A stretch of 64,000 nucleotides of DNA from Aureimonas jatrophae. GTDB taxonomy: Bacteria; Pseudomonadota; Alphaproteobacteria; Rhizobiales; Rhizobiaceae. The DNA lies in assembly GCF_900104035.1 (NCBI RefSeq), contig NZ_FNIT01000001.1:124001-188000 (forward strand). Direction: 5' to 3'. Under the pieces are notes generated by a model, which ran no database searches, was not told the origin of the DNA, and saw only the letters and a program-made list of their open reading frames with translations. Shown in pieces: positions 31,977 through 45,997 of the stretch. The first letter of the stretch is position 1; every line of letters begins with the position of its first letter. A program made the translations under genes and the position numbers.

Positions 31977-32942
31977 ATGGAGCTTCCGACACCCAAGACC
32001 CTCGTGACGGTCGGCGAGATCGTGGTCGAGATCATGGCGACCGAGATCGGGCAGGTGTTTCTGGAGCCCGGTCCGCTGGTCGGACCCTTTCCCTCCGGTG
32101 CGCCGGCGATCTTCATCGACCAGGCGGCGCGCCTCGGGCAGCCCTGCGGCATGATCGCGGCGGTGGGCGACGACGACTTCGGCACGCTCAACATCGAGCG
32201 CCTGCGATCGAGCGGTGTCGACGTCTCGGCGATCGAGCGCCTGCCGGGCGTGCCGACCGGCACGGCCTTCGTGCGCTACGCCGCGGACGGAAGCCGCGCC
32301 TTCGTCTTCAACATTCCGCTGAGCGCCTCGGGCCATATTCGCCTGACCGAGGCCGGGCAGGCCCTTCTGAGCCGGGCCGACCACGTCCACGTCATGGGCT
32401 CGTCCCTGTTCTCGCCCGCCGTGGTCGCGGTGGTCCGCGAGGCGATCGGGCAGGTGAAGGCGCGCGGCGGCACCGTATCCTTCGATCCCAACATCCGGCC
32501 CGAGATGCTGGAGCGTCCCGGCATGCGCGAGGCGCTGCAGGAGATCCTGCAGGCCTGCGACCTCTTCCTGCCGAGCGGTTCGGAGCTCTTTCTGTTCACG
32601 AAGGCGCGCCACGACGCGGAGGCCGTCGCCGAGCTTCTCGCGCGAGGCATCCGGGCCATCGTCGTGAAACGGGGTGCCGAGGGCGCCACCTATCACGACC
32701 GAGACACGACGGAAGCGGTGGACGCCTTCCGCGTCCGCGAGGTCGATCCGACCGGCGCCGGCGACTGCTTCGGCGCGGGCTTCGTCTGCGCCTGGCTGCG
32801 GGGCGCTTCGCCGCGCGAGGCGCTGTTGCAGGCCAACGCCTGCGGCGCGCTCGCGGTCGGCGCCAAGGGGCCGATGGCGGGAACCGGCACGACGCGAGAC
32901 GTTCACAACCTGATTGCTGCCCACAAGGAGGTCCGCCTATGA
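31977..32942 (+). CDS. PfkB-family sugar kinase, probable tagatose kinase
   Basis: A 321-residue ribokinase-fold enzyme: TVGEIVVEIMATEIGQ at the N-terminus, PSGAPAIFIDQAARLG for substrate binding and the catalytic anion hole VDPTGAGDCFGAGF. The best-known relatives beside GatZ/KbaZ-like genes phosphorylate D-tagatose or 2-keto sugars. The ATG at 31977 was chosen because conservation begins there; one at 31935 is also in frame and neither has a strong ribosome site. The stop overlaps the next start (ATGA) after a good AAGGAGGT, so the two proteins are made together. Confidence 0.8.
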   Translation: MELPTPKTLVTVGEIVVEIMATEIGQVFLEPGPLVGPFPSGAPAIFIDQAARLGQPCGMIAAVGDDDFGTLNIERLRSSGVDVSAIERLPGVPTGTAFVRYAADGSRAFVFNIPLSASGHIRLTEAGQALLSRADHVHVMGSSLFSPAVVAVVREAIGQVKARGGTVSFDPNIRPEMLERPGMREALQEILQACDLFLPSGSELFLFTKARHDAEAVAELLARGIRAIVVKRGAEGATYHDRDTTEAVDAFRVREVDPTGAGDCFGAGFVCAWLRGASPREALLQANACGALAVGAKGPMAGTGTTRDVHNLIAAHKEVRL

Positions 32943-37627: not shown

Positions 37628-38026
37628 TCAGTCCGATCGGACCTGCGTCAGGGCATCCAGCGCGTCGACGAGCGAGGCCGGGCGATAGGGCTTGCTGAGA
37701 AACACGCCGTGCGCCGGCATCTGGTCGGAGCCGATGCGGACATGGCCCGACGTGACGATGACCGAGACCGGCGGCCATCGCTCGCGCACGGCATGGGCCA
37801 GCTTCAGCCCGTCCATCGTGCCCGGCATGTCGATATCGGTGAAGAGGATGCGGATGTTGTCGTGCTGTTCCAGAAGCTCGAGCGCGCGGGCGGCATGGGA
37901 CGCGCCATAGACCGTGAACCCGGCATCCTCGATCATGTCCATCGCATCCATCAGCAGCAGCGGTTCATCCTCGACGACGAGGATGCCGATGCGGGATCGA
38001 TCAAAGGGTCTTGGCGTGGCCGTCAT
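37628..38026 (-). CDS. Single-domain response regulator
   Basis: A 132-residue stand-alone receiver: ILVVEDEPLLLMDAMDMIE, phospho-acceptor in ILFTDIDMPG, the switch Ser/Thr in VIVTSGHVR and the Lys in FLSKPYRP. It has no output domain, so it acts by protein contact or as a phosphate sink. The start overlaps the stop of the HWE kinase gene (ATGA), making them a cognate pair. HWE-kinase/receiver pairs often feed the general stress response in this group, but nothing here proves it. Confidence 0.88.
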   Translation of the reverse strand: MTATPRPFDRSRIGILVVEDEPLLLMDAMDMIEDAGFTVYGASHAARALELLEQHDNIRILFTDIDMPGTMDGLKLAHAVRERWPPVSVIVTSGHVRIGSDQMPAHGVFLSKPYRPASLVDALDALTQVRSD

Positions 38027-39087
38027 GCTGTCTCGTCGCGTCGGCCGCTCGGGGTCAGCGAGCCGTTCAATGTGTAGATAAGACCGCCGGGTTCATAATC
38101 GCTTGCGGCAGATCCGCCGAAATAGCTCGGCACGATCCGCTCGGTCAGCTTCGAGCCGAAGCCCCGGCGTTCGGGCGCCGCGACGGGCGGGCCCCCGCGC
38201 TCCTCCCAGACGAAGGCGAAGCGGTCCTGCGGCCCGACGTCCCAGCGAACGCTGACGCGGCCCTCGTCGGTCGACAGCGCGCCGTACTTCACGGCGTTGG
38301 TCGACAACTCGTGGATGGCGAGCGCCAGTCCCAGCGCCTGCTGCGCCTCGACGCGCGCCGGAGGGCCCTGAAGCGTCACGCGCTCGCCGTCCGCGCAGTG
38401 AGGCGCGACCGAGGCCGCGACCACCGCGGCAACGTCCGAGGCGGCCCAATCCGTCGCGGTCAGAACGTCCTGGGCACTGGCCAGGGCCTGGATGCGCGCC
38501 GATGCTTTTTCGGACGCGTCGCGCGTATCGAGCGCGTTGCGCAGGCTCTGCGACACGACGGCCTGGACCATCGCGAGCGTGTTCTTCATGCGGTGGGAGA
38601 GCTCGCGCTGCAGAACCGCCTGCTGACGCACGCGGGCCTGCTGATCGTCCAGAAGGCTCTTCTGCCGCGACAGGAGCGAGCGCGTCTGGGCCCGCTCGAC
38701 CCGAAGGCTTCGGACCGCCCGATGCGTGACGTGGATCAGGAGAAGATCGACGCTGACGACGCCGATATAGAACAGGAGGGCGACCGCGACCGACGGGTTC
38801 ATGGTGAAGACGCCGACCGGCGGGATGAACCAGTACCATGCCGCCAAGCCCGACAGGACCGCGCAGGCGACGCCCGGCCACAGGCCCGCGAAGAAGGCCG
38901 TCAGAATGACCGCCGGAAAGAAGGTCAGATAAGGAAAGCCGGCCGGCAGGACGTGGTCCGAGGCGAAGCGAACGCCGAGCGCCGTCAGGAAGGCGAGGGC
39001 TGCCAGGGTCCAGGCGGCCAGCGGCGTCGACGAGATGCGTTCCGCCCAGACGAATGCCTTCATGCCCGCCAACCTCGAATAGCCCAT
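38023..39087 (-). CDS. HWE-family sensor histidine kinase with DUF4118-type membrane domain
   Basis: A 354-residue kinase. The N-terminal ~125 residues hold about four membrane helices like the DUF4118/KdpD-type module (FPAVILTAFFAGLWPG). A short coiled linker leads to the H-box RELSHRMKNTLAMVQ (His165), the N-box ALAIHELSTNAVKYGAL and the W-x-E motif WEERGG (near residue 294) that define HWE kinases. The sensed signal is unknown. An in-frame ATG at 39063 is an alternative start. It is translationally coupled to the following receiver. Confidence 0.87.
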   Translation of the reverse strand: MGYSRLAGMKAFVWAERISSTPLAAWTLAALAFLTALGVRFASDHVLPAGFPYLTFFPAVILTAFFAGLWPGVACAVLSGLAAWYWFIPPVGVFTMNPSVAVALLFYIGVVSVDLLLIHVTHRAVRSLRVERAQTRSLLSRQKSLLDDQQARVRQQAVLQRELSHRMKNTLAMVQAVVSQSLRNALDTRDASEKASARIQALASAQDVLTATDWAASDVAAVVAASVAPHCADGERVTLQGPPARVEAQQALGLALAIHELSTNAVKYGALSTDEGRVSVRWDVGPQDRFAFVWEERGGPPVAAPERRGFGSKLTERIVPSYFGGSAASDYEPGGLIYTLNGSLTPSGRRDETA

Positions 39088-40505: not shown

Positions 40506-41255
40506 TTAGCGCTGAAGGGCGGCCGCGTAGTTCTGCGAGACCTGCGTCCAGTTCACCGCCTCCCACCAGGCCTTCAGGTAGTCCGGTCGGCGATTGTTGT
40601 ACTTGAGGTAATAGGCGTGCTCCCAGACGTCGTTGCCGAGCACGGGTGTGCCCTTCGTTTCGGCGACGTCCATCAGGGGGTTGTCCTGGTTCGGCGTCGA
40701 GGTCACCGCCAGCTTGCCGCCCTCGTCCACGATCAGCCAGGCCCATCCCGAGCCGAACCGATCGGCGCCGGCCTTGTTGAAGGCCTCGCGGAAGGCATCC
40801 ATGGAGCCGAAGCTCGACTCGATAGCCGAGGCCAGTTCGCCGGACGGCTCGCCGCGCTGGCCCTCGGGTGCCATGATGCGCCAGAAGAAGCTGTGGTTCC
40901 AATGGCCGCCCGCATTGTTGCGGATCGCGGCCGACCGCTGTCCGGCCGTCGCGACAAGCTCCTCGAGGGTCAGCCCGGAGAGGGCGCTGTCACCTTCCAC
41001 CGCCTTGTTGAGGTTGTTGACGTAGGCCTGATGGTGCTTGGAATGATGGAGTTCCATGGTCTGCGCGTCGATCACCGGGTCGAGCGCGCCGTAGGCATAG
41101 CCGAGTTCCGGCAGCGCGAAGGGTGCCTTGGCCTCGGCCTGGCTTTGCGCGGTGGGCTGAGCGGCGGACTGCTGCGCGGCAGCCGGCATCGAGGGCGCGA
41201 GTCCCATCACCAGGGCGACGGCGAACAGGGAGGCGGCGGAGCGAAGGCTCGACAT
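40506..41255 (-). CDS. Exported Fe/Mn superoxide dismutase
   Basis: A 249-residue protein. Residues 1 to about 27 ([20 protein letters not shown] then PSMPAAA) form a signal peptide, so the enzyme acts in the periplasm. The mature part is a standard Fe/Mn-[16 protein letters not shown] and [10 protein letters not shown] contribute metal-binding histidines, and [18 protein letters not shown] the Asp and His. Metal choice cannot be told reliably. It removes superoxide outside the cytoplasm. Most Fe/Mn-SODs lack a signal; periplasmic ones are usually Cu/Zn. The gene stands alone. Confidence 0.9.
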
Positions 41256-41630
41256 GATGGAGGGCTCTCCAGGAAGGGGGTCGATCATTGCCCAATGCCG
41301 GCGACTGGTCGCCGTTGCAAAAACAAGTCGTGATCCGTCCCCATCCTCCGCAGGCGGATCGCGCATGGCATCGTGTGATGGCGCGCGTCCGAGGCCGCTA
41401 GGCGAGGTGGACATCGAACGCATGCGCGCTCGACCACGGCGGGGAACGTTCGAAGCGAGAAGCCCTTCCCCTCGTATGGGCACGCTGCGGTCCTCCATGC
41501 TAGGACGCCGTGCCATCCAGCCCGTGCGTCGGGATCTCGACGTGCGGTCCGGGCGCAGTGCCGCAGGTCCGAACCGTGCCTTGCGCTCGCGGCGACCCAG
41601 ACTTATTGCCTGTCCAACGAAAGGCCGGCC
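41256..41630. promoter_or_regulatory. Divergent intergenic region between sod and the LOV gene
   Basis: About 375 bases without a gene. GGCGAC and GTCGCC at 41300-41313 form a perfect 6-base inverted repeat (spacer TG) 45 bases upstream of the sod start, a possible operator. The rest should hold the LOV-gene promoter; ACTTATT near 41611 is the only AT-leaning stretch. No GGAAC-N16/17-CGTT stress promoter is visible, and no open frame looks real. Confidence 0.45.
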
Positions 41631-42191
41631 GTGGAAGAACCATCGATTCCGTTCGAGTTGCGGGATTATTTCGAGCGCTCGAACATCGCGTTGGCTCTGG
41701 CCGCCGCGGAGCCGGACAACCCGCTCGTTCTCGTCAACGAGAAGTTCCGCTCGCTGACGGGCTACGCGGACGACGACGTGATCGGGCGCAACTGTCGCCT
41801 CCTCCAGAAGGACGTCGAGAACCGCGAGGCGCGAGAGCGCATCCACGCGTTTCTGGAGGGCGATGCTCAGGCCAGCGTGCGCACGCCCATCATCAACTTC
41901 CGCAAGAACGGCGAGCCCTTCGTCAACCTCCTCTACATGTCGAAGCTGCGCGACCGCTCGGGGCGTCCGCGCTTCCTGTTCGCCTCGCAATACGACATCA
42001 GCCGCTCGCACCCCGAACGCCTGGCCGAGTACGACGCCGAACTCGCGCGGACGCTGTCGCGCATGACACCCGCCCTGTCCGAGAACGGCATCGTGATCGA
42101 GGGTACGCTGATGGCCATCGCCAACGCCGCGTCCCTGATCGCTCAGGCGAAGGTCACCCTGTCGGACCTCGACGGTCCGGACCTCTCCTAG
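41631..42191 (+). CDS. LOV-domain blue-light photoreceptor (short LOV)
   Basis: A 186-residue protein. Residues ~10-115 are a PAS/LOV domain with the flavin signature GRNCRLLQ; Cys55 is the photoactive cysteine that forms the flavin adduct. [32 protein letters not shown] and FASQYDIS supply the other FMN contacts (Asn, Asn, Gln). The C-terminal ~65 residues are mostly helical, with no output domain, so it must signal by contact. GTG start after AAAGG. It lies 19 bases before the CheB/CheR-HWE kinase gene, suggesting light input to that kinase. Confidence 0.9.
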
Positions 42192-42210
42192 AACCCCGAA
42201 AGACCGCCGA

Positions 42211-45200
42211 GTGGACACGTCGAACGCCATGCCCGACCCCGCCAAGGCGCCGGTCCACGATTTCGGACCCGTGGTGGGGATCGGTGCGTCGGCCGGCGGC
42301 CTTGAGGCGTTGCGGGAGATGCTGTCGGGCGCGCGGCTGCCGACGGGCCTCAGCTTCGTCGTCGTTCAGCACCTCGACCCGAACCACGAGAGCATGCTCG
42401 CCCAGCTCCTGGACCGGCACACGGACCTCGAGGTCCTGCAGTGCGAGGGCGGCGAGCGCATCGAGGCCGATAAGGTCTACATCATTCCGCCCGGGCGGGG
42501 CCTGGCCATCCGCGAGGGCGTCCTGGAGCTGCGGGACTTCGCCCAGCCTCGCGGCCTGCGCCGGCCGATCGACGACTTCTTCCAGTCGCTCGCCGTCGAC
42601 CAGCAGGCCAACGCCGCCTGCGTGATCCTGTCGGGCACCGGCGCCGACGGCACGACGGGCCTGCGGGCGGTCAAGGAGCATGGCGGCGTCTGCGTGGTGC
42701 AGCAGCCCGAGAGCGCGCGCTACGACGGCATGCCGCTGTCGGCCGTCGGAACGGGGCTGGTCGACTTCGTGAAGGCGCCGGGCGAGATCGTCGCTTGTCT
42801 CGACGACTTCTTTCGCCGGCGCGGCACGGACCCGAGCGAGGCCGAAGCCGAGATCGTCGCCGATCACATGGACGAGCTGTGCCGCGTGGTGCGGCAGGCC
42901 GTCGGGCACGACTTCTCGGGCTACAAGCGCACGACGCTGGTGCGGCGCGTGGAGCGCCGCATGCATGTTCTGGGCATCGAGACAGGCCGGGGCTATCTCG
43001 CGCGCGTCCGGACCGATGCGGGCGAGTGCAGCGCCCTGTTCCGCGATCTTCTGATCAACGTGACGCGCTTCTTCCGCGACCCCGAACTCTTCGAGGTGCT
43101 GCGCCAGCGCGTGATCGAGCCGCTGGTGCGCGAGCGCGAGGTCGGCGAGGACGTGCGCGTCTGGATACCGGGCTGTTCGAGCGGCGAGGAAGCCTACTCG
43201 ATCGCCATGCTCTTCGCCGAGGCCTGCCGCACCGTAGGCGTGACGCAGGGCATCCAGATCTTCGCCACCGACATCGACGAGCAGATGCTGCAGATCGCCC
43301 GCGAGGCGAGCTATCCGGCCAACGCCCTGGCCGACATCCCGCCCGCCTTCCGCGAGCGCTACGTCATTCCCCATGCCGAGCGGTTCTCGATCTCGCCCGA
43401 GATCCGCGACATGATCCGCTTCTCGAACCACAGCCTCGTCAAGGATCCGCCGTTCTCGCGCGTGGATCTCGTGTCCTGCCGCAACCTCCTGATCTACTTC
43501 GACGACCGGCTTCAGCAGTCGGTGCTGCCGCTGCTCCACTACGCGATCCGACCCGGCGGCTACCTGTTCCTCGGTCCCTCCGAGAGCATCGGGCGCTTTG
43601 AGCAGCTCTTCCATGTTCTCGACCATCAGGCGCGGTTGTTCGAGCGCCCGCCCGGCTCGCCGCGCTACCCGATCGACCTGCCGAGCGGATTGCAGCGCGG
43701 CCAGACGCGGCGTGCCGACGGCGATGGCCGCTCGGCCCGTCAGGCGGCCACCGACGAGGCGACCTCGCTTCGCCGCGTCGTGGAGCGCTACGCGCCGCCC
43801 TCGATGGTGCTCGACCAGGACGGGGCCATCATCGCCGCCTATGGCCGCCTCAGCCGCTACTTCGACTTCCCCGTGACGCGCACCGGCGGATCCAGCGCGA
43901 TCAACCTCGCGCGGCCGGGGCTGCGCGACGTCATCGGTCCGCTCCTGCGGCAAAGCCGCGACGGCAAGAAGCGCCTCGTGGCGCGCGACGTCGAGGTGGC
44001 GTCCGAATACGGGGTCCAGCCGATCGACGTCGTCTGCGATCCGCTGCCGGACGGCACCACGCTCCTGGTGCTGCGCGATACCGATGCCTTCCGCGCCGCC
44101 AGCGATCCCGATCTCGTGGAGATGGATACCGAGGGCGATCACGTCGAACTTCTCGAGGAGGAACTGCGCCACACCCGCCACCGCCTGCGCTCGGCCGTGG
44201 AGGAGCTGGAAACGGCGAACGAGGAGCTGAAGAGCTCCAACGAAGAAATGATGTCGATGAACGAGGAGCTCCAATCGACCAACGAGGAGCTGTCCACCGT
44301 CAACGACGAGCTGAAGACCAAGGTCGATCAGCTGACGGTCGCCAATTCCGACCTGCGCAACTTCTTCGACTCCACCGACCTGGCGGTCGTGGTGCTGGAT
44401 CGCGACCTGCGCATCCGCAGCTACACGGCGGCCGCGACCTCGATCTTTCCCCTCCAGCCGGCGGACCGGGGGCGGCCGCTCGCCGACGTGTCGAGCCGCT
44501 TGCCAGGGCACGAGCACATCGAGGACGCCGCCGCGGTCGCGGCGGGCGGCTCCGTCATTCAACGGCGCGTGGCCATGCGCGACGGGTCGCGCACCTTCTC
44601 GCTGCGCGTCCTGCCCTACCGCACGCAAAGCGACAGCACCGACGGCGCGACGCTGGTCTTCACCGACATCACCGACGCGCTGTCGCTGGAGCGTGAGCTC
44701 GCCGCCGAGCGCGACCGCCTGGACCTCGCCATCAAGGCCGGCGGCATCGGCATCTGGGAGCTCAAGCCCGACGAGGGCAGCGTGACCCTGGATGCGGTCG
44801 CCGCCTCGCTGATGGGCATGGGCCAGACCGAGAGCGGTCCGCTGGCGAACCTCCTGTCGCGCATCGCGGAAGGAGACCGGGGCGAGGTCGAGCTGGCGCT
44901 GCGCATGACCGCCGAGGGCAGCGAGGACTTCGATACGCGCTTTCGCGTCGAGGCCGGCGAGACGCGGTGGATTCGTTCCTTCGGCCGCATGGTGGCGGGC
45001 AGCCGACCGCGCCGGCTGGTCTGCGTGTCGATCGACGTGACGCGCGAATACGCGCTGGCCGAAACGCGCGAGCTGATGCTGCGCGAGATGAACCACCGCG
45101 TGAAGAACCTCTTCGCGATCATCGGCGGCATGATCTCGGCGGCCGCGCGCACCCATCGCGACGTGGACGTCCTGTCGGCCGATCTTCGCGACCGCATCGC

Positions 45201-45645
45201 GTCGCTCGGCCGCGCCCATTCGCTGGCCTCGCCGCTGGACGGGCAGGACTCGACCAATCTGCGCAACCTCGTCGAGACGACGCTCCAACCCTATCGCGAA
45301 AGTGCCTCCATCGCCGTCGAGGGCGAGACGCGTCTGGTGCGGTGGCGTTCGGTCTCGCCGCTCGCCCTGATCCTGCACGAGTGGGCGACGAACTCGGTGA
45401 AGTACGGTGCGCTGGGTTCGGGCGGCCGGCTGGCCGTGCGTTGGGACCCGCGCGGAGACGGATGCGAGTTGCAATGGGACGAGGAATTCCCGCATCGGGA
45501 CCATTCTCCCGACGGTGGTGGCTTTGGAACCCTTCTCGTAGCCACCTCCGCGCGCCAGATAGGGGCCACGATCGAACGCATGGGGGAGCCCACGCGCTAT
45601 CGCCTTGCCCTTCGTCTCCCCGGGACCGTGTTCGCAGATGACTAA
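42211..45645 (+). CDS. CheB-CheR-PAS-HWE histidine kinase hybrid
   Basis: A 1144-residue protein. Domains in order: CheB methylesterase ([12 protein letters not shown] with Ser27, [13 protein letters not shown]); CheR methyltransferase from about 220 to 490 ([20 protein letters not shown] near 321, [12 protein letters not shown]); a Glu/Asn-rich coiled coil at about 640-710; two PAS-like regions (about 710-830 and 840-950); and an HWE kinase with [12 protein letters not shown] (His962), [14 protein letters not shown] and the WDE motif at Trp1089. Similar hybrids occur away from chemotaxis clusters. GTG start chosen; an ATG at 42229 is possible. It overlaps the receiver gene by 8 bases. Confidence 0.9.
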
Positions 45646-45997
45646 AACCGTTCTGATCGTCGAGGACGAGCTCTTCGTCGCGCTCGACATCCAGGACATC
45701 GTGGAGGCCATCGGCTGCGACGTCGACGGTCCCTACCAGACCGTGACCGAGGCGCTCGGCGCCGTGGACCGGCATCAGCCCGACTGCGCCGTGCTCGATG
45801 TCCGCCTGCTCGACGGCGAGGTGTTTCCGGCCGCCGACCGCCTGCGCGACGACGGCGTGCCGCTCGTCTTCCACTCGGGCCACGTCGACGAGCGCGACCT
45901 CAAGGGGCGCTATCCCGACGCGCTGCTGTGCCCCAAACCCTCCGCGCCCGTCGAACTGCGTCGCGTCATCGAGCGGGCGCTCGCCGCGCGCCGCTAG
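45638..45997 (+). CDS. Single-domain response regulator
   Basis: A 119-residue receiver: TVLIVEDELFVALDIQDIVE, phospho-acceptor in CAVLDVRLLDGE, PLVFHSGHVDERDL and the lysine segment LLCPKPSAP. There is no output domain. It overlaps the HWE kinase by 8 bases and is its obvious partner, so the LOV protein, kinase and receiver form one operon. Its last four bases overlap the last four of the convergent phnN. Confidence 0.88.
   Translation: MTKTVLIVEDELFVALDIQDIVEAIGCDVDGPYQTVTEALGAVDRHQPDCAVLDVRLLDGEVFPAADRLRDDGVPLVFHSGHVDERDLKGRYPDALLCPKPSAPVELRRVIERALAARR

Follow-up and report, generated by a model that had tools for sequence, protein, structure and literature searches.

A short LOV protein gene and its conserved CheB-CheR-PAS-HWE histidine kinase neighbour in Alphaproteobacteria: a probable split blue-light two-component system

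A 64,000-nucleotide stretch of the Aureimonas jatrophae genome (GCF_900104035.1; 4.59 Mb, 25 contigs), hereafter the window (C23:124001–188000), contained three genes on the forward strand that form one operon. The first (41631–42191, GTG start) encoded a short LOV protein of 186 aa resembling RsLOV of Rhodobacter sphaeroides. After a gap of 19 bases followed a gene (42211–45645, GTG start) for a 1144-aa histidine kinase with the domain order CheB-CheR-PAS-like-coil-PAS-PAS-HWE, which overlapped by 8 bases with a gene (45638–45997, ATG start) for a single-domain receiver of 119 aa with the phosphoacceptor Asp54 (Pfam). Coordinates and Pfam matches thus bore out the layout given in the original prediction: a short LOV protein with an intact Cys55, a 1144-residue kinase 19 bases downstream and an overlapping lone receiver.

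The LOV protein matched only PAS families in Pfam (PAS_9) and had no fused output domain in its 186 aa. Cys55 (codon 41793–41795, forward strand), in the motif GRNCRLLQ, was present in all 85 rows of an alignment of the window protein, the 80 loci described below and four more sequences, and N54, R56, L58, Q59, N89, N99 and Q120 were likewise invariant. We take Cys55 to be the photoactive residue and the Asn/Gln set to contact flavin mononucleotide (FMN). The protein is predicted to bind FMN and to form a Cys55–flavin adduct in blue light. An AlphaFold2 model (mean pLDDT 89.6) placed C-terminal helices at residues 128–151 and 166–180 (42012–42170, forward strand). Mean conservation was 0.735 for residues 154–180, 0.71 for the core and 0.636 for helix 128–151; the segment 154–180 was conserved on a par with the core. 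The C-terminal helices are the proposed output surface and presumably carry the signal. Residue 98 (41922–41924), aligned by eye to the usual LOV Trp, was Val in 77 and Ile in 8 of the 85 rows, and quenching of the flavin triplet may therefore be weaker, which, if so, would be relevant to singlet-oxygen or reporter uses. The nearest named relative among the listed loci was Aureimonas sp. AU4 (LOV identity 91%). Mr4511 of Methylobacterium radiotolerans was considered as a family member and rejected, since its 164 aa, C71 and Q112 at the canonical Trp position (PMC7596710; papers are cited here and below from excerpts) do not fit the C55 and V98 spacing.

In the kinase, Pfam recognized CheB_methylest at residues 22–195, CheR_N at 220–269, CheR at 283–473, PAS_10 at 715–821 and HWE_HK at 959–1039 (55.1 bits, cut-off 22.8). 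A second PAS domain, at about residues 838–945, had no Pfam call and matched PDB chains with PAS domains of the FixL and sensory-box types. The CheB methylesterase domain (42274–42795, forward strand; E 4.9e-52 for the whole protein) began at residue 22, and Pfam found no N-terminal receiver of the chemotaxis type before it. Ser27 (83/83 aligned rows), His54 (83/83) and Asp146 (84/84), which we take to be the CheB catalytic triad, were fully conserved. The CheR methyltransferase domain (42868–43629, forward strand; E 5.7e-56), comprising CheR_N and the S-adenosylmethionine-binding domain, kept GCSSGEE and R286 in 83 of 83 rows. A heptad coiled coil with repeated Glu-Glu pairs (44152–44355, forward strand; residues 648–715) preceded the PAS region. 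The HWE dimerisation/phosphoacceptor domain (45085–45327, forward strand; E 1.3e-14) continued into a catalytic domain ending at about 45600; the phosphoacceptor His962 and the WxE residues W1089 and E1091 were present in 82/82 rows and N1061 of the N-box in 82/83. Incomplete row counts, here and in the receiver, stem from partial genes. The receiver was barely above the Pfam cut-off (Response_reg 5–88, 30.5 versus 30.2 bits) and had D10, D54 and K100 in all 68 aligned rows. The CheB and CheR motifs were therefore intact, as had been claimed, and the retention of catalytic residues in CheB, CheR, HWE domain and receiver argues against decay of any part.

The best NCBIfam matches of the receiver were PRK13435 receivers and the PhyR receiver, all below cut-off. 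The motif PFxFATG(G/Y), characteristic of FATGUY single-domain regulators such as MrrA/SdrG (PMC5964349), did not occur in the window receiver, which has FHSGH with F78, S80 and H82 in 68/68 rows. Onward transfer from the receiver to the general stress response is possible.

Conservation of the neighbourhood was assessed in genome collections that are samples, and neighbours and chemoreceptors were counted by pattern within stretches of a few kilobases. A contig scan whose query was restricted to the C-terminal half of the LOV protein gave 128 relatives, the best 80 of which were taken as loci; they came from Aureimonas, Methylobacterium, Sphingomonas, Novosphingobium, Rhodobacteraceae and others. 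At all 80, a relative of the kinase lay directly after the LOV gene on the same strand, the two always in separate open frames; two kinases were cut by a contig end (L132, L139), and damaged copies were seen of the LOV gene in L147 and of the kinase gene in L149, L167 and L174. Chosen by the LOV protein alone, these loci show that the adjacency exceeds chance. Since they were picked by similarity to kinase-linked LOV founders, the 80/80 describes this LOV clade and not all short LOV proteins. A receiver match was found near 63 of the 80 pairs and was missing near 17, namely all 15 Methylobacterium-type loci (14 Methylobacterium or Methylorubrum and one Beijerinckiaceae metagenome-assembled genome) and the two truncated loci. 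The conserved core is thus the LOV–kinase pair: of the trio originally proposed, the pair stood at every locus, and the receiver proved to be no fixed part.

Within the family sample, a short LOV protein (at least 120 bits over most of the query) occurred in 6 of 199 genomes including A. jatrophae, and the kinase (E = 0) in the same six of 198; at about 3%, the distribution is patchy. Among 397 genomes of the order sample, two more carriers (G411 and G510) both had the kinase, with no receiver match near the pair in G411. The class sample (385 genomes) held no carrier above 121 bits except A. jatrophae itself. No viral copy of the system was confirmed. The pair survived changes of layout, being mostly on the same strand and back to back in G020, G124 and the RsLOV-type loci. 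In G020, which has the pair elsewhere, a second, very similar short LOV gene lay close to one end of a contig of 10.3 kb (G020:C22, L045). Distances in the LOV and kinase trees correlated with r = 0.95 over 98 loci, and none of 999 permutations reached this value.

The kinase as query gave the same picture. It matched 228 plasmid records, 40 of which were listed; 13 of these 40 encoded kinases at least 49% identical to the window kinase, and the remaining records of the 40 that spanned 80% or more of it were at most 34.2% identical. All 13 had a short LOV gene directly upstream, 11 by a LOV match of E ≤ 1e-30; by sequence check, two Sagittula plasmids carried in the same place a 178-aa LOV protein with RNCRFLQ and 40–41% identity. 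Conserved co-occurrence, the check set beforehand for the prediction, was accordingly strong with either gene as the starting point.

No LOV match was found near five weaker plasmid kinases, of less than 35% identity, that were examined (H25, H27, H28, H30, H34), which together with G165, G116 and G759 served as eight LOV-less controls. These kinases shared with the window kinase the domain order (by similarity), the type of heptad coil and, in six of eight, an adjoining receiver match. They differed in the missing LOV gene, in a separate CheB gene nearby (5/8, versus 1/109 LOV loci, a set that includes three kinase-less ones) and in a longer coil (7/8). The extra coil stretch, of 14 residues or two heptads, was missing from all 97 LOV-linked kinases spanning the place; in the 28 columns counted, 96 LOV-linked kinases had 14 letters and L222 had 7, versus 28 in the seven LOV-less kinases (L132 and L174, which do not span the place, are omitted). 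The CheB-like genes (301–368 aa; L234, L242, L243, L244, L245) lay upstream of the kinase in four of five cases, where other clades have the LOV gene. A LOV domain fused to the kinase was considered for the 1541-aa open frame of G759 and rejected, the stretch before CheB having neither a Pfam nor a LOV match. In a tree of 107 kinases, the 90 window-type sequences grouped together at support 0.0 and the nine RsLOV-type sequences at support 1.0; the tree did not resolve how these two clades relate to G759 and H27.

RsLOV (PDB 4hj3/4hj4/7ob0) ranked first among solved structures by sequence profile and by a fold search with the window LOV protein; the first 13 Foldseek rows were RsLOV chains (176–185 columns, TMq 0.66–0.70, root-mean-square deviation 5–7). 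The two proteins share size class, Cys55 and N- and C-terminal helices at 28–30% identity, and the RsLOV equivalents of the FMN-contact residues have been described (PMC8246142). PpSB1-LOV, DsLOV and other short LOV proteins, which also consist of a LOV core with no fused output, were weaker fold matches over fewer columns. At one locus (L230, G1217:C1:256500–271500), the LOV protein was identical to the RsLOV PDB chain fragment at 153/153 residues, and on this identity we call the genome R. sphaeroides or a very close strain. Beside RsLOV, on the opposite strand, lay a kinase with CheB, CheR, two PAS and HWE domains, and then a receiver just under the Pfam cut-off (28.6 versus 30.2 bits) that matched the window receiver at E 2.7e-10. 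The layouts differ, the RsLOV-type LOV gene standing back to back with the kinase gene and the window LOV gene upstream in one operon. RsLOV-type kinases formed a separate clade and were 34–38% identical to the window kinase over nearly the full length. In the family of a Cereibacter flavus genome (248 genomes), every further LOV match in an open frame shorter than 310 aa was examined, 13 in all: a CheB-CheR-PAS-HWE kinase was adjacent to 11, six of them back to back, and in L214 the kinase start was 784 bases past the LOV gene. In the genus of one such locus, all five genomes had an RsLOV-type LOV gene and four had the kinase.

RsLOV is dimeric in the dark and monomeric in the light, and its light-dependent dimer serves as an optogenetic tool (PMC9614035). 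Its physiological function was called unclear in 2021 (PMC8246142). According to work cited in a 2015 paper (PMC4335406), losing RsLOV affects genes for pigment, photooxidative stress, chemotaxis and carbohydrates; the same paper states that short LOV proteins probably signal via a partner protein. The excerpts on RsLOV make no mention of the neighbouring kinase. Literature searches turned up no description of the pair or the trio, in line with the original prediction, which knew of no described system of this kind, and an earlier mention of the gene beside RsLOV may exist. To our knowledge, most short LOV proteins have no known partner. The conserved neighbour offers a specific, testable one for RsLOV and for the LOV family across several alphaproteobacterial orders.

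Fused LOV-HWE/HisKA2 kinases (NF052306; PRK13559) resemble the window pair in having a LOV input and an HWE output. They differ in that the pair consists of two proteins, and its kinase adds CheB, CheR and PAS domains and the coil. The profile NF052306 was covered piecewise, positions 28–140 by the window LOV protein and 141–333 by kinase residues 945–1137, at about 94 bits each, below the whole-protein cut-off of 450 as expected for halves; the pair therefore reads as a split fused LOV-HWE kinase. The A. jatrophae genome had 17 HWE matches and, besides the window LOV protein, three LOV matches. The open frames of these three were 499, 527 and 635 aa long, and the two shorter ones were HWE-positive too. 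In LovK/LovR, a LOV kinase is likewise paired with a single-domain receiver (PMC5964349, PMC11481889). Most likely, the window LOV protein acts as a detached light-input module for the kinase, the two together being a split form of the fused LOV-HWE kinases. Because the neighbourhood was conserved in both directions and the photoactive Cys and FMN residues were invariant, we infer with good support that a separate blue-light sensor acts on the kinase, as originally predicted. On the whole, the locus probably encodes a split blue-light two-component system in which the LOV protein switches the adjacent kinase and CheB and CheR, more speculatively, act on the kinase coil.

In such a system, blue light would drive the FMN-bound LOV protein to form the Cys55–flavin adduct, upon which its C-terminal helices would repack, through a change of dimer or of exposed surface. 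The repacking would alter the contact with the kinase, most likely at its coil/PAS/HWE end, and would thereby switch both autophosphorylation at His962 and phosphotransfer to the lone receiver; at loci lacking one, a different receiver would take its place. Adaptation to steady light would probably come from the built-in CheB and CheR, which would adjust the kinase by adding methyl groups to glutamates in the heptad coil of the same protein and removing them again. LOV–kinase contact, the direction of the light effect and phosphotransfer are parts of this scheme that we infer.

Several findings weigh against this interpretation. Two of the 13 Rhodobacteraceae-type short LOV genes (L217, L219) had no kinase in the stretch read, nor did an RsLOV-type LOV gene in L233 (G1219:C31). 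In L233, a receiver of the same type stood near the LOV gene with no kinase match between them, and the kinase may have been lost. The kinase of G759, related to both clades, had the short coil and no LOV gene in the 9 kb read. The correlation between LOV and kinase trees partly reflects shared descent, and adjacent genes demonstrate a functional link but no physical contact. The LOV C-terminus had been considered as a degenerate HWE phosphoacceptor domain because REHHHMMNTTFDTIAN resembles REMNHRVKN... by eye; hhalign against the HWE domain of the window kinase and 10 HWE/LOV-kinase sequences gave this idea no support, with no detectable similarity (probability 0.2 to 0.8 percent). The strict methylation consensus of methyl-accepting chemotaxis proteins (MCPs) had no match in the kinase.

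The kinase-less loci indicate that the LOV protein can have another role, as would be expected if it regulated something else and were merely co-transcribed with the kinase in one stress response, the two never touching. We regard such shared regulation as unlikely, since the pair is kept whether its genes are co-directional or back to back (80/80 and 13/13). In a coarse clustering of neighbours, no other gene family reached beyond 22 of the 80 loci; this test is weak, as it counted antisense frames and picked up the kinase at only 67 loci and the LOV gene at 42.

For the methylation target, the original prediction had suggested a partner. This found no support: an MCP motif, searched as a pattern, was near only 3 of 109 loci. 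The kinase coil was the most conserved of eight segments compared (0.906, versus 0.831 for CheB and 0.788 for CheR), and Glu pairs recurred in it every seven residues (EELETA, EELKSS, EEMMSM, EELQST, EELSTV). MCP methylation sites follow a consensus with a strict and a loose form. The loose form fitted three coil glutamates and also had two matches in the CheB domain. Invariant glutamates are what a methylation substrate would need, which makes the coil a candidate target; that it is the target of CheR and CheB is speculative, and it appears a better candidate than a partner protein. Since the heptad coil also occurs in the LOV-less fusions, self-methylation would be a trait of the whole kinase type. 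A further step, doubtful yet conceivable, is that RsLOV-type LOV proteins are detachable light subunits, light moving them on or off a self-methylating kinase to give a chemotaxis-style light memory with no chemoreceptor.

The distribution of separate CheB genes (5/8 versus 1/109) makes LOV and CheB look like alternatives. The LOV protein might accordingly be a methylation substrate, a light-gated partner of CheB/CheR, or a substitute for a CheB-like subunit of the LOV-less kinases, and its well-conserved last segment would suit a substrate. We give these options little credence, as inspection by eye showed no Glu pairs of the coil type in the LOV C-terminal helices, and only eight LOV-less loci enter the comparison.

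Modification of chemoreceptors, with the kinase as a chemotaxis satellite that resets MCP methylation by light, would account for intact CheB and CheR sites in a genome with 19 MCP-signal matches, and RsLOV loss affects chemotaxis genes, as cited in PMC4335406. At one locus (L238, Rhizobium rhizoryzae plasmid unnamed4), the LOV-kinase-receiver operon was immediately preceded by two MCP genes of the same orientation. The rarity of the MCP motif and the lack of a CheA or CheW domain among the Pfam matches of the kinase speak against it. None of the 19 MCP-signal matches and neither of the two further CheR matches of the genome lay inside the 64 kb window, and the nearest che-type genes were at C23:457–469 kb, about 290 kb from the operon; the earlier statement that no chemoreceptor or che gene lies nearby stands to this extent, CheA, CheW and CheY not having been searched for. 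Overall, a chemoreceptor target is highly improbable.

Read as a split two-component system, the pair is a natural example of a sensor-in-trans design on which light-controlled kinases could be modelled, and the system lends itself to asking which substrates CheB-CheR-kinase fusions methylate.

No strict match to the EcfG (general stress sigma) promoter motif lay upstream of the window LOV gene, the only one in the window being at 32880. A relaxed motif occurred in 21 of 81 upstream stretches, the window included, versus a mean of 3.1 in shuffles. An EcfG promoter before the LOV gene was rejected as a general feature, position and form being convincing only in one Sphingomonas subclade (L156, L157, L159, L160, L167, L169, L170, L172, L174), where GGAAC-N17/18-GTT stood about 116–118 bases before the LOV gene, at a fixed distance and with a diverged spacer; the window had only the relaxed match, at another distance. 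Divergent from the LOV gene, on the reverse strand of the window (40506–42245), was an open frame named by eye as superoxide dismutase-like; this neighbour was absent from five other Aureimonas loci checked and recurred in Aureimonas sp. AU4 (L095). At 37628–39087, 2.5 kb upstream of the LOV gene, the opposite strand encoded another HWE kinase (DUF4118-HWE by Pfam), which had a lone receiver of its own.

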